DNA of 40,103 bases from a virus. Positions within the stretch are counted from its first letter, which is position 1, and each line of letters begins with the position of its first letter. This document shows positions 26,370 to 34,457 of this stretch, in pieces. The notes under the pieces are model-generated. The model saw only the letters and a list, made by a program, of their open reading frames with translations. It did not search any database and was not told the DNA's origin. The position numbers and the translations under genes were made by a program. The stretch is from IMG/VR virus record IMGVR_UViG_3300042549_005625, positions 1 through 40,103 of that record, one strand, 5' to 3'.

Positions 26370-27191
26370 TTATTTTAATAAATTATAATATTCTTTAAAA
26401 TGTTTAATTCTATCAGGTAAACCAATAGTTCCACCATTCACTCTTTTAGTTACTGCCGTTACTGTTGCGTCGTCAGCTCCTTTATCACAAATAGACCAAA
26501 GTTTGTTTGAGTCAAAGAAGAATGCCGCAGATGCTAATGGATATTTTGTTGCAACCAAATCAGGATTTGATACAGTATCTTCACCGATAAATTTCGCGAA
26601 GTTTGTATAGTTTTGTTTTCCTGTTAATTGAATATAACCTCTACCTCTGAATTTAAACCCATCTTTTGTTGATTCATCACCATTACCCATTCTTCCACCA
26701 TATACTTTTGATGCAATTTTTTCAGGGTTTCTTGCGTAAGATTCTGCTAAGTTGCCCGGAAAGTATTTTGGGAAGATTTTTTTAAGACCATCCGCAGAAT
26801 AATTTACATTTTCAGAAACTGCTTTAAATCCACCTGATTCATGACCACATTGTGCCAAGAAATGAGCTAATCTTAATGGATTAGTGATGTTGAATTTTTT
26901 TGCAGTGTCAGGTATTTGAGCAATTACTGATTCCGGAATGTGTCCTTTTAATTTTTCTAATTTGAATGGTCCTCCCGATGGAATAACTACATCTTCTTTA
27001 ATGATTTCCCCCGGAAACATCTTTTTCCAAGTTCCATCACCAACAATCCCGTCAGATGTTAATCCATTTTTAGTTTGCCATTCTTTAACCAATTTCTCAG
27101 TTCCAGGTCCAAAAACACCATCGGGTGTTGTTCCTAATTTTGATTGAAGTTTTTTAACTTCTTCGCCTTTTGAGCCATTTTTTAGTATCAT
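26370..27191 (-). CDS. Endolysin: peptidoglycan-binding domain plus GH19 domain, 273 aa
   Basis: Residues 4-60 form a PGBD1 repeat (GSKGEEVKKLQSKLG ... TPDGVFGPGTEKLVKEWQ). Residues about 85-270 are a GH19 chitinase/lysozyme domain: AHFLAQCGHESGGF with catalytic Glu118 and FRGRGYIQLTGKQNY (181-195). It cleaves beta-1,4 bonds in peptidoglycan at lysis. No signal peptide, so it needs a holin. Ordering N-terminal binding then C-terminal catalysis is standard. Minus-strand TATTTATA box 22 nt upstream suggests late expression with the neighbours. Confidence 0.95.
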   Translation of the reverse strand: MILKNGSKGEEVKKLQSKLGTTPDGVFGPGTEKLVKEWQTKNGLTSDGIVGDGTWKKMFPGEIIKEDVVIPSGGPFKLEKLKGHIPESVIAQIPDTAKKFNITNPLRLAHFLAQCGHESGGFKAVSENVNYSADGLKKIFPKYFPGNLAESYARNPEKIASKVYGGRMGNGDESTKDGFKFRGRGYIQLTGKQNYTNFAKFIGEDTVSNPDLVATKYPLASAAFFFDSNKLWSICDKGADDATVTAVTKRVNGGTIGLPDRIKHFKEYYNLLK

Positions 27192-27212: not shown

Positions 27213-27220
27213 TATAAATA
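27213..27220 (-). promoter_or_regulatory. TATTTAT box (longer spacing)
   Basis: Minus-strand TATTTATA, 21 nt before the ATG of the endolysin. Confidence 0.5.
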
Positions 27221-27228
27221 CTTTAACT

Positions 27229-28203
27229 TTAGTCCTTTTTACCCGTTCTTATTAAATAAAAATTTGAGGACCCACCATTTATTGGGGAATTAATGGTAAA
27301 ACTTTGAACACCGGGATAAGAATTTCTCAAATCATTAGTTGAAGAATTTAGTATTGAATATTGAGATGGTATTAAAATTCTTGAGTCAGGAATTGAATTT
27401 GTCCAAGAAGAAAATCTACCTGATTTTTTCATAAAAATGTAATATGAATCTGATATATTAATTCTACCATCATTATTAACATCATATCTATAATAATCTA
27501 ATGATGTTAATGTTCTTGATATTGATTTGGTGTTTGATTGTTGTGCGTCAATATTTTCTAATGAAGGTGGAGTGGATGGGGTACTAATTTGTAAATACCA
27601 TTCAACTGAAGGGTTTGAAGCTTCATTAATTGAGTATCTCCCATTGGAATCTGTGTAAACACTTTTTACGTATGCCCATTCCGTAAATGTTACAATATAC
27701 TCAAACTCCAAAACATATGGTAATGAAATATTAGGTAAATCATTCCATTTACCACCACCAACAAATTGAATATAATCTTCATTACCTGCGTTATTTGGTT
27801 CCCCACCATTCCAATTAGACCAAGAAAAGGGTTCATTTGTAACCCATCTCCAAGTACCTTCTGACACTTCATCTGTTAATCCAATCCAACCATTTGGCCA
27901 TAGATTAAATATAAAGTTATTCTCAGCGGGTGAAGTTACAGTAACTAAATGACCTCCCATGTTTAAACACGCCTGTCTTGCATCCGTCCAAGTCATAGAA
28001 CCGGTTGAACGATAATATGAATGTCCGTTATAATTATTTTGAGAGGTAAACCCATTTAAAGTTGGTGTTGTTCTTTTATACAACTTTACTTCCATATTTT
28101 GAATACCACCACCTACCGAGTTATAGATATAACCCGAGTAAGTAAAATTTTGACTCCAAGAGATTGTTGAAAATAAAAGTAATATGTAGAATAACTTTGT
28201 CAT
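27229..28203 (-). CDS. Secreted C-type lectin with dockerin-like EF-hand, 324 aa
   Basis: Signal peptide 1-18 (ends SWSQ). Residues 60-168 are a C-type lectin domain with WIGL (106-109), EPN (135-137, a mannose-type sugar-ligand motif) and WND (153-155). Residues 240-267 hold DVNNDGRINISD, a perfect Ca-binding dockerin/EF-hand loop, followed by the block SGRFSSW shared with the 627-aa protein at 32026. The C-terminus (RTGKKD) lacks a T9SS domain. Last gene of the exported cluster. A sugar-binding, possibly cell-surface-anchored adhesin is inferred. Phage C-type lectin folds are otherwise known in tail fibres and diversity-generating cassettes; no repeats of that sort are seen here. Confidence 0.85.
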   Translation of the reverse strand: MTKLFYILLLFSTISWSQNFTYSGYIYNSVGGGIQNMEVKLYKRTTPTLNGFTSQNNYNGHSYYRSTGSMTWTDARQACLNMGGHLVTVTSPAENNFIFNLWPNGWIGLTDEVSEGTWRWVTNEPFSWSNWNGGEPNNAGNEDYIQFVGGGKWNDLPNISLPYVLEFEYIVTFTEWAYVKSVYTDSNGRYSINEASNPSVEWYLQISTPSTPPSLENIDAQQSNTKSISRTLTSLDYYRYDVNNDGRINISDSYYIFMKKSGRFSSWTNSIPDSRILIPSQYSILNSSTNDLRNSYPGVQSFTINSPINGGSSNFYLIRTGKKD

Positions 28204-28650
28204 TTATAGTTCTAATGCGTTTTGTATTGCTTTTTTTAATGCCGAAGAAAATGCCGATTTTTCAAAAGGGAGATTTTCATCCTGTAATTCTATAAATGTT
28301 GATTTTACATCAGTATTTGAATCACCAACACCTTTATATTCTTTACCATCTTTAGTGATAATTAAAGTAACTATTGTTTTTTTTCTTTTTCTTTCAAATG
28401 GCCCTAATGATATACCGGTTGACGGAGCTTCAATACTTTCTATTAATACTGAAACAGGTTTACCGTCTTCGCATATTGTATTGTTAACTGATAATATTTC
28501 TTCAGTAATTTGTTTAACTCCTAAAGTGAATCTTTTTGGGTTAACACCTTCGATATCTCCATTGTTTTTAACTTCTTTAACTGTATAACAATTTTGAGAG
28601 AAAGATGTTAGTGAACCTAACATCAATAATGTAATTAATAATTTTTTCAT
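28204..28650 (-). CDS. Small exported protein, 148 aa
   Basis: Signal peptide 1-19 (ends TSFSQ), one Cys soon after (NCYTV). Mature part is beta-rich with the segment TIVTLIITKDGKEYKG and a C-terminal amphipathic helix (FSSALKKAIQNAL), a layout reminiscent of periplasmic accessory proteins of secretion systems such as CsgE/CsgF partners, but no sequence proof. It ends directly at the start of 27229 and lies 2 nt below the next gene in the cluster. Confidence 0.7.
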   Translation of the reverse strand: MKKLLITLLMLGSLTSFSQNCYTVKEVKNNGDIEGVNPKRFTLGVKQITEEILSVNNTICEDGKPVSVLIESIEAPSTGISLGPFERKRKKTIVTLIITKDGKEYKGVGDSNTDVKSTFIELQDENLPFEKSAFSSALKKAIQNALEL

Positions 28651-28652
28651 AT

Positions 28653-29438
28653 TTAAAAATCTAAATTTCCACCTATTAAGATATTATTCATAATACCAAA
28701 TTTCGGTGTTGTGTTTATGTTCATTCTCCAATTAGTATTCATTTTAAACGATTTTGATATGTTTACCGATAAAGAATTTCCGACCACTGAATTGAATGTT
28801 GTTGAAGTTCCTAATGTTCCCAAACCTAAATCGTAATATGGTGAACATATTGTTATAAATGTTTCTGGAGTCCATTTAATTTTGTTGGATATTTTAATTT
28901 CTTTATTTGCCATTAATACCGTATAAGGGACTAATATAAAATAAACGTATTTATGGTCTTCAAGCACTGTAGAACCTATTTGAACTCCAAAATTTATTTT
29001 ATCAGTTAAAAACATTTTAGTAACACTACCCCCTAAATTAATCGTAGTACCCATCTTACCAAAATTAAAATGGTAATACAAGTTTTTATTTTTATAGTAA
29101 GAAGAATAGGATTGTTGTGTTAAATCAAATGTTAAAACCGCATTAACCCCAAACCCTTTACCTTCATTTATTTTACTCCATCCTAAACTTGTACCATGTC
29201 TCCATCCATCTTCATATGTTGGATTTTGAATTAATGCGAAATCGGCAGATGTTAACATAGGGTTAGGTTTAATTATAGAACCACCCCCAAATGATTTAGA
29301 TTGAGTTCCAATTATATTATTTTGGGAATTTCCAAATAGTTCAGTAGAACTTGGTGTTGAACTAGATGGAGGAGGTGCGGGTTGACCGAATAAATTCCCA
29401 CAAATTAATAAAGGTATTAGTATTAATAATTTTTTCAT
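28653..29438 (-). CDS. Outer-membrane beta-barrel-like protein, 261 aa
   Basis: Signal peptide 1-18 (ends LFGQ), a Pro/Ser-rich linker (20-40), then about ten alternating hydrophobic/polar strands (for example FGVNAVLTFDLTQQ, YYHFNFGKMGTTINLGG), with a terminal Phe (IGGNLDF), the usual outer-membrane barrel C-terminal signal. Possibly a BAM-inserted barrel. Part of the cluster (2-nt gaps). Function unknown; could be a surface anchor or pore partner. Confidence 0.7.
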   Translation of the reverse strand: MKKLLILIPLLICGNLFGQPAPPPSSSTPSSTELFGNSQNNIIGTQSKSFGGGSIIKPNPMLTSADFALIQNPTYEDGWRHGTSLGWSKINEGKGFGVNAVLTFDLTQQSYSSYYKNKNLYYHFNFGKMGTTINLGGSVTKMFLTDKINFGVQIGSTVLEDHKYVYFILVPYTVLMANKEIKISNKIKWTPETFITICSPYYDLGLGTLGTSTTFNSVVGNSLSVNISKSFKMNTNWRMNINTTPKFGIMNNILIGGNLDF

Positions 29439-29440
29439 AG

Positions 29441-30898
29441 TTATAAAAATGCTTTAGCTCCAAGTAATACTTGGTAGTTTAGTGGTTGGTCGTTTATTTG
29501 TTGTACCCCACTAAAACTTAGGTTTAGTTTAAATTTTTTAGTTAATTTATAATCGACAGCAACAAATGGAACTGCTAATAGACCTGATTGATACCATATT
29601 CCCTCGTAATAATATACAAAAGGGGAATATACAATAACAAACATTGTTGTCATACCCATTTTTTTATTAACATTAAAACTACCAAATGCTCCACCTAATG
29701 TAGAGATACTTTGAAATTTAGATTCCCCTAAATTCCCTGTTGTGTAGTTAACCCCCACGGTTGTGGTGATTTTTTTTATTTGGTACGACTCCATTACAGA
29801 GGTTGTGTTAAAAAAATCTTTATCAAAATTCATCATAGATGAATTTGCAATAATAGTTGTTAATTTTTTATAACGATATGATGCAAATAATGTGATATTC
29901 GTGTTGTTAACTTGACTTGTATAATTAACCAACGCTCCTTTTGCAAATGTGTTTTTTGTGTTTGATGAAATGATACTCGTATTTACTCTTATTTGAGAAG
30001 GGTCAGTTCCTGCGGCGCTTCCTATTACTACAATATCTCCTGTCATCATTAAACTACCTTTTTTAACTGCAGCGACTTTACTTTTAGTTGATGAAGAGGT
30101 TGTTGATGATGAGGATTGTGCGTCATCAAGTTTTTCTTTATCTGATTTTTCAGTATTGTCTAATTTGACAGAATTAATCCCTCCTGTGATATTACTTACA
30201 CCCGAGGAGTTATTAGTATTTTGTGTTGTGGAGTTATTAGTATTTGGTGATGTGTTATTACCGGAAGTTACAGGTGACTGAGACGACTGACCTCCTGTTG
30301 TAGTTGGGTTATTTGGATTTGAAGTCGTTCCTCCTTGCGGATTAGTTCCATTTCCAACTCCTGAACCATTGTTTTGATTTCCCCCGCTTTGCGAAGTTCC
30401 TGAATTTGTGTTAGTAGTTGTTGTACTTCCTCCGTTAATATTAATTGTTGCATTATTTTCTATTTTGGTTTTATCCTTCTGTCTTTCATTATTAGATGAT
30501 ACTTTTTCATCTGCTTGAATAATACCTTCCACATTTGACATACCTGCGGATGATATTGAAGACATTGAGGTTAATACAGTAGTTAATACTTGTATGTTAT
30601 TGGCAGCAATTGTTGCGTTAACCGATGTGTTCAGTTGAAGACCTACACCACTACAAGGACCTGAAGGATTTTGAGAATTTACCTCATTTATCCATTGTTC
30701 CATTGCACCTGATTGAAGTTGAGCATATGTAAAACTTTGTACTGACCCATTATATGATAACACCACACTTTGTGATGGATTTGGAATAAAAATTTCCTTG
30801 GTTTTGGAAGTGCAAGGGTCTGCATACGAATATGTAAACCCTTGACCTAATACCATGGTTGTAAATATAAGAAATAAAAATGAGAATATCGTCTTCAT
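29441..30898 (-). CDS. Large exported protein: low-complexity linker plus barrel-like C-terminus, 485 aa
   Basis: Signal peptide 1-18 (ends VLGQ). Residues about 20-140 hold a mixed domain with two Cys; residues 150-250 are extremely rich in Asn, Thr, Ser and Gly (NTNSGTSQSGGNQNNGSGVG-like). Residues about 275-485 form amphipathic strands ending in LLGAKAFL, an outer-membrane barrel-type C-terminus. The long flexible stretch may span periplasm or project outward. Its start overlaps the CsgG-like stop by 1 nt (TAATG), so they are coupled. Function unknown. Confidence 0.75.
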   Translation of the reverse strand: MKTIFSFLFLIFTTMVLGQGFTYSYADPCTSKTKEIFIPNPSQSVVLSYNGSVQSFTYAQLQSGAMEQWINEVNSQNPSGPCSGVGLQLNTSVNATIAANNIQVLTTVLTSMSSISSAGMSNVEGIIQADEKVSSNNERQKDKTKIENNATININGGSTTTTNTNSGTSQSGGNQNNGSGVGNGTNPQGGTTSNPNNPTTTGGQSSQSPVTSGNNTSPNTNNSTTQNTNNSSGVSNITGGINSVKLDNTEKSDKEKLDDAQSSSSTTSSSTKSKVAAVKKGSLMMTGDIVVIGSAAGTDPSQIRVNTSIISSNTKNTFAKGALVNYTSQVNNTNITLFASYRYKKLTTIIANSSMMNFDKDFFNTTSVMESYQIKKITTTVGVNYTTGNLGESKFQSISTLGGAFGSFNVNKKMGMTTMFVIVYSPFVYYYEGIWYQSGLLAVPFVAVDYKLTKKFKLNLSFSGVQQINDQPLNYQVLLGAKAFL

Positions 30899-31614
30899 TA
30901 TTCTTTAAAAACCCCTTTTTTAATTAATTTAGAAACAACTCTTGAAGATGCGGTTTCTAACGATTTTTTTGTTGATATACCAATTGTTGATTGGTTAAAT
31001 TTAATTTCATCAACATCATCTAATAACGATGATGTTTTCACTGTGTTAGACTCACCTAACCCACTACCAGTTATAACTTCACCGGTTTGGGCATCGACAA
31101 ATCTAATCTGTAAACCTAAACGAGTTGTTTGAGTTATTTTAGCACCTTCACTTCCTTTAATCACTTCGTCTTCTGAGACACTGAAATCGTAAACTTCTAT
31201 GTAAACAAAATAGTTAGCTAAAATTACATTACCTTTAACTTCTATTTTATTACTTGAAATTCCTTTATCAGACGCCTTATCTTGGGCAATCATTTTGTTT
31301 TTGATTTCCGCTTTATCCTCAGTGAATTTAAATCTATCTGTTGATTCTAAATACTCTAATACAATATTCGCAACCCCAAGACCTACTCGTTTATCTTTTA
31401 GTTCAGGATACATCTCATATACCTCATCGTTGATACCAATTTTTAATATTTGGATTGGTATTACAATGTCACCATTATAATCACTGACAACATCTAAAGA
31501 TTGTTTTTTTTCAAAATCTGCTTTATAGTCCTCAGTTTTTATGGTTCCAATAGTTTGGGATAATCCAATACACGAAAAAAGTAAAAAAGGTAATAGTAAT
31601 ACTATTTTTTTCAT
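30898..31614 (-). CDS. CsgG-like outer-membrane secretion lipoprotein, 238 aa
   Basis: A lipobox LLFSC gives Cys15, so the mature protein is lipidated like CsgG. The order GLGVANIVLEYLESTDRF (helix and strand), then ITQTTRLGLQIRFVDAQTG and VITGSG, then STIGISTKKSLETASSRVV, follows the CsgG/curli-channel family (LxLRVVDxxTGxV, TxxGxAxxxA). CsgG forms a nonameric outer-membrane pore that exports unfolded protein. The start is set at 31614, giving a true signal peptide; a longer frame runs upstream through the neighbour. One nt separates it from 31616. In this phage it could secrete the cluster's proteins or permeabilise the outer membrane; both inferred. Confidence 0.75.
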   Translation of the reverse strand: MKKIVLLLPFLLFSCIGLSQTIGTIKTEDYKADFEKKQSLDVVSDYNGDIVIPIQILKIGINDEVYEMYPELKDKRVGLGVANIVLEYLESTDRFKFTEDKAEIKNKMIAQDKASDKGISSNKIEVKGNVILANYFVYIEVYDFSVSEDEVIKGSEGAKITQTTRLGLQIRFVDAQTGEVITGSGLGESNTVKTSSLLDDVDEIKFNQSTIGISTKKSLETASSRVVSKLIKKGVFKE

Positions 31615-31615
31615 A

Positions 31616-31957
31616 TTACCAAGGGTCTTCTTCCGTTTTTGGTTTAGCAGGTGCTGGTTGTGCTGCTGGTTTTTCCACAACTTTTTCTCTGATAATTGTG
31701 TTAGTACCACCACCATTGTTTTGTTGTTTTTGTTGGTTTGTGTTGTTGTTTTGTAGATTGATAACTACAGGTGCGGCTGCAGGTTGTGCAACTTGTTCTG
31801 TTTTTGTTTCTTCTTTATCGTCACCATGACCTCCAAACAATTGTGTTGATAACCATATACCACCACCACCAATAACAGTAGTTAAAGTACCTATTATTGT
31901 TTTCTTTAATCCTGACCAAGTACCATCATTTTGTGTTTCTTGTGTTTCTTCTGACAT
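31616..31957 (-). CDS. Single-TM protein with Pro/Ala/Asn-rich tail, 113 aa
   Basis: A short charged N-terminus (MSEETQETQND), a Gly-rich hydrophobic segment (about 19-43: IIGTLTTVIGGGGIWLSTQL), then a low-complexity tail with QNNNTNQQKQQNN and PAAQPAPAKPK. Topology suggests a membrane anchor with a long periplasmic arm reaching toward the cell wall or outer membrane, like TonB- or spanin-type spacers. Directly precedes the CsgG-like gene. No family. Confidence 0.65.
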   Translation of the reverse strand: MSEETQETQNDGTWSGLKKTIIGTLTTVIGGGGIWLSTQLFGGHGDDKEETKTEQVAQPAAAPVVINLQNNNTNQQKQQNNGGGTNTIIREKVVEKPAAQPAPAKPKTEEDPW

Positions 31958-31999
31958 TTTAATTTAATTTTAATTGTTTATTTCCTTCTTATAGGCTTT

Positions 32000-32020
32000 G
32001 GTGTCACAAATTGTGACACC
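32000..32020 (-). other. Perfect hairpin between 32026 and 31957 genes
   Basis: 8-bp stem GGTGTCAC with GTGACACC, 5-nt loop, 6 nt after the stop of the T9SS-cargo gene; no T-run follows, so it may protect or process the mRNA rather than terminate. Confidence 0.6.
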
Positions 32021-32025
32021 ATAAA

Positions 32026-33909
32026 TTATTTACGGATTATCTTATTAGATTCTATTTCCGTACCTTTTTTAAGAGTAACTATGTAAGTTCCTGAAGGAAG
32101 GTAACCAACATTTGTACTATATCTGTGTTCACCTGAATGTAAATCAGTGTTAACGATTGTTTGAATTTCTCTACCACCCAAATCATATAAAGATAACCAA
32201 ACATTACCTTCTTTTTCTACAGTAAATTTGACAGTGATGTCATTATCAGTTGGATTAGGGTATGTCACCATATATTCTAAATCGGTTGGTTTCATAACTC
32301 TCATGATTTGAATAATCCCATTTGTAGGTATTATTTTCAAATCTCGAGCGATTGAATTTCCTGAGAATTTTTTTGTAACATATAAAGGACTTACACCCCA
32401 TTGACTTTGAATTTCTTTCGATGTGAATTGTAGTGTGAAAGCTAATTCGTTGTCATTTAATAATTTTGTATTTTTTGTTGGGTCATAGCCACCCCACTCA
32501 ACAATATTATCATTTGTATTAACATAAGTTATCCATCCACTAACTTTATTCTCAGCTCTAACACCTGTAAAATCTAATAGATTACTATTGTAATTTAATG
32601 CCAGTTGTAAAGAACCTAATTGAATTCCATTTGTTTTTACAAGAACAGGAACCTCAACTCTACTATTTTCATTTACCGTTAAACTTGGATAGTTTAATTC
32701 GATGGTTTGTAATGTTGGGTTGTCATAAGTTGTTGTAACATCAATAATATTTGATGGTGCGTTTAACGGGTTTACAATTTCAATTGGTGTCATACGAGCC
32801 ATATTAAAACCTGTACCATTAGCATCTCCTTTAACTAACACATAGAAAGTAACTGTTGTTGTACCCGGTAAAATGTTGTAAACAAGATTCGTTACACCCG
32901 GAATTGTAGATTGTAAAGATGATGTTGAACCATTAATAGAAGTGTATTCTGAATCTGAGAAGAATTTAACATCTTTAACCGAGTTAGGCCAAGAACTAAA
33001 TCTTCCTGATACTCTACCAAACACACCATACACATCAGAAATTGATATGTTGTTGTCACCATTAACATCAGATGAATAAAAATCAAATCCTGTCGGAGTA
33101 TCTTGACCTAAAACAAATCTGTTGATTTTTTGTGAGTCAGATGTTGAAATGATATTTGCTATTGATAGTGATTCACCATCTACTCTAATACGAACGTCAT
33201 AACTTGTAACGTCTAGTGGTACATCTGTAAATGTGAAAACACCAGCGTTATTTGTTTGTGTTGTTGACGCTTGAATCCAAGTTGAAGATGTCATTAATTT
33301 TTTCTCTAAAATAACCGGAATTAGTTTTGACCCCGTTCCTGTTACGTTAGTGAATGTACCACTAAACGAAAATAGTTGAGGTAAAAATGCTCCACCAAAG
33401 TTTTGTAAATTTAAAGTATAGTCAGAACCATTTTGTTTTGTTGCGGTTTGTGGGAATGTTTGAACACCACTAAATGTCATGGGTTGAACAGACGACAAAC
33501 TCGCAAAATTCGCTGAGTGTACTAAATTTAATTTTACAAATGACCCATTTGATAATTCAAAATTCGAGTCATTACCTGTATAAGTTAGAGTAATCGTAAC
33601 ATATCCATTTGCAGGACTATCCTGAAATTGAATATATTGGGGGAACGATGTATTTGACGATACGACAGAAGACACTGATGTGAATGCTGAGGTATCATAA
33701 AACACTCGAAACTGAACAGCCGTAATCAATTCGGTAGTATTGTTAAAAAAACATAAACCTACTTCAGTATTACCAGCAGATGCCGGTGCTAATTGATAAG
33801 TTGCGTCTAATGTAACAAAAACTCCGGTAGTTGTCGGTGTCGGACAAATTTGGGAATAACCCAGTGAAGTCATCACAAGGAATGACAGCACCATAAAAAG
33901 TTTTTTCAT
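32026..33909 (-). CDS. T9SS-secreted cohesin/dockerin-like surface protein, 627 aa
   Basis: Signal peptide 1-20 (ends LGYSQ). Domain order: a cohesin-like beta-sandwich at about 40-150; a carboxypeptidase-regulatory-like strand block (180-245); a dockerin-type EF-hand DVNGDNNISISD (281-292) with the SGRFSSW block; a second cohesin-like sandwich at about 405-535; and at 548-627 a type A T9SS sorting domain (YPNPTDNDITVKF, LYDLGGREI, LPSGTYIV, end SNKIIRK). The T9SS domain directs export across the outer membrane and usually surface attachment. It opens the exported cluster, with a TATTTATA box and a hairpin leader. Adhesin or scaffold is inferred. Confidence 0.85.
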   Translation of the reverse strand: MKKLFMVLSFLVMTSLGYSQICPTPTTTGVFVTLDATYQLAPASAGNTEVGLCFFNNTTELITAVQFRVFYDTSAFTSVSSVVSSNTSFPQYIQFQDSPANGYVTITLTYTGNDSNFELSNGSFVKLNLVHSANFASLSSVQPMTFSGVQTFPQTATKQNGSDYTLNLQNFGGAFLPQLFSFSGTFTNVTGTGSKLIPVILEKKLMTSSTWIQASTTQTNNAGVFTFTDVPLDVTSYDVRIRVDGESLSIANIISTSDSQKINRFVLGQDTPTGFDFYSSDVNGDNNISISDVYGVFGRVSGRFSSWPNSVKDVKFFSDSEYTSINGSTSSLQSTIPGVTNLVYNILPGTTTVTFYVLVKGDANGTGFNMARMTPIEIVNPLNAPSNIIDVTTTYDNPTLQTIELNYPSLTVNENSRVEVPVLVKTNGIQLGSLQLALNYNSNLLDFTGVRAENKVSGWITYVNTNDNIVEWGGYDPTKNTKLLNDNELAFTLQFTSKEIQSQWGVSPLYVTKKFSGNSIARDLKIIPTNGIIQIMRVMKPTDLEYMVTYPNPTDNDITVKFTVEKEGNVWLSLYDLGGREIQTIVNTDLHSGEHRYSTNVGYLPSGTYIVTLKKGTEIESNKIIRK

Positions 33910-33939: not shown

Positions 33940-33947
33940 TATAAATA
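33940..33947 (-). promoter_or_regulatory. TATTTAT box of the exported cluster
   Basis: Minus-strand TATTTATA, 30 nt before the ATG at 33909; the only box of this type in front of the seven-gene run. Confidence 0.5.
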
Positions 33948-33998: not shown

Positions 33999-34457
33999 AT
34001 GAGAATTATCATATTATTAATGTTGTTTTTTACCACTCAATCGTTTTCACAAATAGTCATTGATGATGTTGGAGAAGGGTGGAAAAAAAATGTGGAGAAA
34101 AGTTTGGAAGTGATTAAAAAAGTGGATTCACCCAAGTACGACATAGTGATTAAACAATGTAAACGAATAGGGTTTTGGAATAATAAGTTCTCAACCACTG
34201 AAGGTAATGATGTTATATTGATATCTAAACAAGACATTCAATCAGGTAATATCAATAATTTATCTGCCATAATAATTCATGAATCAAAACATTTATATTA
34301 TAGGAATAATAACATATTTTTAGATGAGAGGGATGAAGAAATTTTATGTTATCAATATGAATTGGATTTCCTTAAAAAAATACCTTTAGTTGAAAATTGG
34401 TTGATTAAACATTGTGAAAATATGATTAACTATTATCGTGGTTTAAAACAACAATAA
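33999..34457 (+). CDS. Secreted HExxH metallopeptidase-like protein, 152 aa
   Basis: Signal peptide 1-18 (ends QSFSQ). AIIIHESKHLYY (90-101) has the zinc site His94, Glu95, His98, followed by DERDEEILCYQYELDF (109-124), where Glu121 could be the third ligand. Small size suggests a minimal zincin. Divergent from the exported cluster, so it may act with it (processing or cell-wall access). Activity is inferred from the motif alone. Confidence 0.75.
   Translation: MRIIILLMLFFTTQSFSQIVIDDVGEGWKKNVEKSLEVIKKVDSPKYDIVIKQCKRIGFWNNKFSTTEGNDVILISKQDIQSGNINNLSAIIIHESKHLYYRNNNIFLDERDEEILCYQYELDFLKKIPLVENWLIKHCENMINYYRGLKQQ

Follow-up and report, generated by a model that had tools for sequence, protein, structure and literature searches.

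What does a phage do with seven consecutive genes of which six carry export signals? The question is raised by IMG/VR virus record IMGVR_UViG_3300042549_005625, a single stretch of 40,103 bases that was analysed over its whole length and is called the window here. On its reverse strand, from 27229 to 33909, seven genes follow one another in the order COH, p113, CsgG-like, p485, p261, p148 and lectin (LEC). A gap of 68 nucleotides (nt) follows COH; at the remaining junctions the genes overlap slightly or lie up to 2 nt apart. A preliminary description of this DNA had proposed this run and order, and coordinates, gaps and strand were confirmed. Gene content, conservation, export signals, folds, the region common to COH and LEC, and promoter class were computed. 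With little more than even confidence, we favour the reading that the run is a phage-specific late envelope module which displays a glycan-binding protein on the surface of the infected Bacteroidota cell.

The module recurs as a unit, beyond chance. Gene order was compared in 80 distinct loci, and only loci with sufficient flank entered the denominators. A gene of the COH/lectin family lies 5' of the CsgG-like gene in 68 of 69 distinct loci, p113 lies 5' of it in 77 of 79, and a barrel gene stands 3' of it in 69/69. About 70 distinct contigs are syntenic for the module. The search for the same gene order in other phages, which the preliminary description had suggested, was positive. The gene for p148 is present in 59 of 67 distinct loci; this count is softer, because the p148 profile also matches CsgG-like proteins. 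p261 is missing from some relatives.

The module is phage DNA and is near-absent from bacterial genomes. The window CsgG-like protein retrieved 83 viral relatives as a query, and an alignment-based scan found the family in at least 569 IMG/VR stretches. The same alignment detected one locus among 84,980 bacterial and archaeal genomes. This locus (L084, CAIWBA010000291.1) lies on a 254-kb contig of a Bacteroidetes metagenome-assembled genome. By eye, the genes flanking the module there are phage-like and encode T4-like topoisomerase-type and tail-collar-type proteins, and the contig looks like a phage of more than 250 kb that was binned with a bacterium. The tail-collar-type proteins of this contig adjoin an endolysin. 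The T4-type capsid protein gp23 was found in 15 of 26 tested records and terminase likewise in 15/26. The window itself has neither gp23 nor terminase; its nearest relative (74.5 kb) encodes terminase. The preliminary description had named a host chromosomal locus or a misassembly as the finding that would overturn it. Both were rejected on the counts of at least 569 viral stretches versus one phage-like genome contig, and on the capsid and terminase genes. Among GenBank phages, matches were limited to isolates of Flavobacterium phage immuto (L083, L099, L100 and L101 in our comparison), a cultured phage of Flavobacterium sp. LMO8 in which the module corresponds to gp013-gp019, with gp013 as the lectin, gp016 as p113 and gp017 as the CsgG-like protein. 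The hosts of the module-bearing viruses seem to be Flavobacterium-like lake and coastal bacteria.

Export signals are found nearly throughout. Signal-peptide-like N-termini, called with a heuristic of our own and not with SignalP, were detected in 51/51 CsgG-like proteins, 51/51 p485 proteins, 36/36 p148 proteins, 43 of 44 COH proteins and 88/88 proteins of the lectin slot. The same heuristic called 0 of 26 endolysins. The preliminary description had assigned Sec or lipoprotein signals to six products. The export signals were borne out; the CsgG-like family is not consistently lipidated, with a lipobox in 9 of 51 members. Pfam matches over cut-offs also bear out its envelope and secreted products, including a cargo of the type IX secretion system (T9SS) and a C-type lectin.

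COH consists of a Sec signal, an N-terminal beta domain, an X-dockerin-like region (about aa 197-364), a cohesin (aa 408-498) and a T9SS type A tail (aa 550-627). The tail matches Pfam (E=5e-10) and TIGR04183 (8.8e-10), both over the cut-offs, and PF18962 was found in 24/24 family members. COH therefore has the N-terminal signal and the C-terminal sorting domain by which T9SS type A cargo is recognized. The cohesin matches PF00963 (E=8e-7, 29.7 bits with a cut-off of 24.1) and is detected in 20 of 24 members, and dockerin matches occur in 8 of 24 (best 1.4e-5). In immuto the COH counterpart is split into gp014 and gp015. LEC has a C-type lectin head (aa 69-157, Lectin_C 3e-16) and an X-dockerin-like tail (about aa 161-324); a T9SS tail was not detected in it. 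Homology links the LEC tail with the middle part of COH, at 4e-20 by blastp between the two window proteins and at 5e-29 in a profile-profile comparison. On this constant tail the heads of the lectin slot are exchanged: Lectin_C in 15 of 23, LamG in 3, GEVED in 2, LCCL in 1 and PA14 in 1. By eye, L066-L080 carry lectin-like and cohesin-like domains within a single polypeptide. As far as domain order tells, the LEC/COH layout is that of a plug-in adhesin plus its socket, with COH as candidate surface scaffold and LEC as candidate displayed glycan binder. The cohesin/dockerin logic, the homology of LEC and COH and the swapping of heads were absent from the preliminary description and are added here.

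These data bear on the possibility that the lectin and its partners are built into the particle as decoration or for receptor binding. Lectin-like adhesins are often found on phages, and the module shares its late promoter class with structural genes. T4-type virions, however, assemble in the cytoplasm, whereas the products carry Sec signals nearly throughout and every COH protein has its T9SS tail. In immuto, moreover, the structural block is remote from the module, which adjoins replication genes. Incorporation into virions is unlikely because of the export signals, and we give this explanation a very small chance.

How would a lectin that lacks a T9SS tail leave the cell? The structure model of the CsgG-like protein (pLDDT 74, TM 0.42-0.50) has CsgG (4uv2) as its top Foldseek match (E=2e-7, probability 1.00), followed by PelC (3e-6). 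PF03783 matches 4 of 29 members (best 8.5e-5) and does not match the window protein; one member was over the cut-off. The regions corresponding to the two membrane hairpins measure 24-25 and 26-29 aa, compared to 32 and 37 in Escherichia coli CsgG (7-11 shorter), and their best hydrophobic faces, judged from sequence only, score 1.16 and 1.48 versus 2.08 and 3.0. Two amphipathic transmembrane hairpins as in the CsgG barrel were thus not found in this comparison. Because the hairpins are short and polar, the CsgG-like protein probably forms a ring in the periplasm, as PelC does, and not a pore, and the channel, if there is one, is more likely p485. Of the 'CsgG-like pore' in the preliminary description the fold was confirmed and the pore is doubtful.

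p485 has a signal peptide, a small N-terminal domain (aa 20-85), a helix (aa 89-118), a disordered Asn/Ser/Thr/Gly linker and, in the AlphaFold2 model, a C-terminal 12-strand barrel (aa 282-484). Foldseek matches the barrel to NanC (2.9e-7), FapF (7e-7) and KdgM (5e-6), and p485 is by its model a candidate outer-membrane channel. Structure prediction of the CsgG-like protein and of p485, part of another suggested check, returned a CsgG fold and a 12-strand barrel. p261 is exported, beta-rich and a probable second outer-membrane barrel. p148 is exported and at its C-terminus is similar to the C-terminal end of the CsgG-like protein (hhalign E=3e-5, 42 columns). p113 has a short N-terminus, one transmembrane helix and a Pro/Ala/Asn/Gln tail, which makes it a candidate inner-membrane anchor extending into the periplasm. 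Its C-terminal residue is Trp in 87/87 distinct homologues although the preceding tail varies, which suggests that the extreme end contacts a partner. A PDB profile search with the CsgG-like protein, p148 and p485 gave nothing useful, and the ribosomal S1 matches of p148 look like chance.

A CsgG fold in a phage also suggests curli-type amyloid secretion (type VIII secretion system) or a nutrient-uptake pore in the manner of pelagiphages, which carry CsgG operons (PMC7029224, PMC9599517); PF03783 in some members agrees with this. The polar, shortened hairpins disagree with it, as does the candidate cargo, which resembles lectin and cohesin proteins. CsgF (PF10614) was not matched by any of 16 p485 members. 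The N-terminus of p485 had been considered as a CsgF on account of its 'FTYSYxDPC' look-alike start; PF10614 and hhalign to E. coli CsgF gave no support. Likewise p148 was not supported as CsgE: hhalign to E. coli CsgE gave no match, and p148 is closer to the CsgG-like C-terminus. CsgA/CsgB repeats were not seen in the run by eye, no repeat or profile search being made. Taken together, we regard curli-type secretion or uptake as improbable. CsgG matches were present in 9 genomes of a 60-genome search. The protein encoded by GenBank entry OR851715.1 (Salmonella phage S.Kent 1-2-1, 1,499 bases) shares 96% identity with E. coli CsgG, and because of this identity the entry is probably host DNA that was submitted as a phage record.

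The timing of expression was approached through the promoter. The single TATTTATA box that the preliminary description had placed ahead of the whole run was located (see table), and many relatives have it ahead of COH as well, at roughly -27 to -42. In immuto, TATTTATA stands 9-45 nt 5' of 15 of 82 coding sequences of the virion block versus 8 of 150 elsewhere (Fisher p=0.0025); this analysis used the motif only, and part of the gene starts were transcribed manually from the annotation. The virion-block genes so marked include terminase, portal, sheath, tube, hub and tape measure, among others. Among the eight genes elsewhere are the one for the lectin and the one that opens the annotated holin/endolysin operon. 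In the window, COH, the endolysin and eight plus-strand genes each have the box ahead of them, and it never has the wrong orientation. The bare count in the window is not above chance (15 versus 9-10 expected), and position and orientation are non-random. Late expression of the module is probable, since in immuto TATTTATA is a marker of late genes. A second immuto motif, GTTG...TATATTTAGGTATCAATAATTAA (GTTG-N-TATATTTAGGTATCAATAATTAA), precedes small genes located at 67-74 kb; it looks like the early promoter.

The late box leads to the main rival explanation, a lysis module in which p113 and its partners in the outer membrane or periplasm would behave as a spanin or as an outer-membrane disruptor, timed with the endolysin. 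The lectin and COH would then be riders or surface looseners. It ranks first among the rivals because the window endolysin adjoins the module, under the same box class, and because small membrane-protein genes are inserted in some relatives. A GH19 endolysin lies within 8 kb in 19 of 33 distinct loci. In a second gene arrangement (L066-L082), small membrane-protein genes stand between p113 and the CsgG-like gene, among them transmembrane plus coiled-coil and two-transmembrane proteins, and two small lipoproteins are encoded upstream. One insert has a weak PHROG holin match (0.0058). These genes, which have no convincing family, are possibly lysis or anchoring genes. The features of p113, namely inner membrane, periplasm-spanning tail and invariant Trp, would also fit, and a pinholin or lysis role was suggested for CsgGF of phage Melnitz (PMC9004378). 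In contrast, 14 of 33 loci have no nearby GH19 endolysin, and about 30 kb separate the annotated holin/endolysin operon of immuto (gp190-gp192) from the module. The lectin, the cohesin and the T9SS tail have no obvious role in lysis and yet are equally conserved. As a whole explanation, a lysis cassette is unlikely and was retained solely as a rival. p113 was rejected as a known holin, as it has no convincing family.

For surface display, which we prefer, we infer the export route, the cohesin-dockerin binding, the display itself and its purpose as follows. Late in infection the phage-type late promoter TATTTATA would activate the run at the same time as the genes for virion and lysis. Sec would carry all products except p113 over the inner membrane. 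The host type IX system would then move COH across the outer membrane by its type A tail, followed by anchoring at the surface. The lectin, having no T9SS tail, would leave through a phage-built route, a CsgG-fold ring below a 12-strand barrel. The ring may be helped by p148, the barrel would be p485 and sometimes p261, and p113 may tie the assembly to the inner membrane. Outside, the dockerin-like tail of the lectin would dock in the COH cohesin, and the dockerin of COH itself may link COH molecules into a lectin-studded coat or short fibres. Such a coat could bind glycans of neighbouring kin cells and keep the next hosts near the burst. Alternatively, it could bind the cell's own envelope and mask receptors from superinfection and sticky debris. 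Display or aggregation and superinfection exclusion, each a candidate, fit better than outer-membrane disruption, all of which the preliminary description had listed. A further-reaching version is a viral organelle, in which a dedicated trans-envelope exporter and the host T9SS build a cohesin-dockerin coat with swappable lectins just before lysis. It is possible, and we put it forward tentatively.

Several points count against surface display. We infer the surface location of the products and the passage of a lectin-sized protein through ring and barrel. The dockerin match of the LEC tail (PF00404, 0.047) is below the Pfam cut-off, and the p485 model has a low overall pLDDT of 57, the barrel being better. 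In hhalign profile comparisons with E. coli CsgE and CsgF, single-sequence targets of low sensitivity, CsgE gave no match and the CsgF match was mostly signal peptide. A late onset is less typical of superinfection exclusion. The adjacent endolysin and the small membrane genes of the second arrangement could point to lysis.

The preliminary description called such a phage cluster unusual. Its parts have precedents (PMC7029224, PMC9004378, PMC9599517, PMC7198788, PMC7468147): curli pores and T9SS cargo have each been known from phages, but separately, and the combination was not found described. Pelagimyophages, pelagipodophages and the Methylophilales phage Melnitz encode CsgG, CsgF and in some cases CsgA/B, for which aggregation ('sibling capture') or lysis was suggested (PMC7029224, PMC9004378, PMC9599517). 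As here, these are phage-borne CsgG-fold clusters, mostly absent from hosts, and several of the phages are T4-like. Their CsgG, however, matches E. coli CsgG directly (37-40%) and comes with CsgF, whereas the present module has no CsgF/CsgE match, reduced hairpins, a separate 12-strand barrel and cohesin and lectin exports. In the PelB/PelC export complex (PMC12141448), a hairpin-less CsgG-fold ring protein likewise lies below a separate outer-membrane barrel. That system exports polysaccharide in bacteria, and the CsgG-like protein is likened to it by predicted fold, with a putative oligomer state. Cryophage (PMC7468147) encodes T9SS type A cargo and has a PA14 protein among its variable genes; superinfection exclusion or competition was suggested for the cargo. 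There, in contrast, the cargo genes are separate variable genes, and CsgG and lectins are not mentioned. The marine Bacteroidetes T4-like virus TARA_ERS488589_N000003 (PMC7198788) has curli-annotated and surface-adhesion genes, with aggregation suggested; it is a single genome and is likened by annotation alone. Cellulosome cohesin/X-dockerin pairs also place a cohesin in a cell-surface scaffold and an X-dockerin-like tail on the plug-in protein. Unlike these, the module is phage-borne, has glycan-binding heads and no enzymes, and its cohesin-tail pairing is predicted. Phage modules of cohesin, dockerin and lectin were not found in an open-access library, in which most subscription papers are missing.

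If the favoured reading is true, widespread T4-like phages of aquatic Bacteroidota devote about 7 kb of late coding to the surface of a doomed cell and not to virions, in a family of stretches as large as that counted above. A virus would then combine the host type IX system with an exporter of its own. Gluing of kin cells or late masking of receptors by phages, a suggestion of long standing, would be testable in a cultured phage-host pair.

Table. Positions of the module genes and adjoining features in the window.
Feature	Position	Strand	Size, basis or remark
COH	32026..33909	(-)	627 aa
p113	31616..31957	(-)	sequence
CsgG-like	30898..31614	(-)	238 aa from the conserved ATG at 31614, not the 272-aa frame
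p485	29441..30898	(-)	AlphaFold2 model, Foldseek
p261	28653..29438	(-)	sequence and homologues
p148	28204..28650	(-)	hhalign
LEC	27229..28203	(-)	324 aa; Pfam
GH19/peptidoglycan-binding endolysin	26370..27191	(-)	own late box at 27213-27220; neighbour, not a core part
Late-promoter-type box TATTTATA	33940..33947	(-)	begins 38 nt 5' of the COH ATG
Intercistronic hairpin	31999..32021	(-)	between COH and p113

The intercistronic hairpin is formed by GGTGTCACAA/TTGTGACACC and followed by AAAGCC; the coding strand lacks a T run there. The hairpin is found at the same place in relatives. Among 16 sequences, 92% of cells are paired and 5 pairs show two-sided changes, with a covariation score of 0.321 versus 0.089 after shuffling. 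It could give COH an expression level different from that of the apparatus, or it may be a dyad to which a protein binds. On the other side of COH, a divergent gene (33999-34457, plus strand) encodes a small exported protein of 152 aa, which has homologues in 44 related loci.

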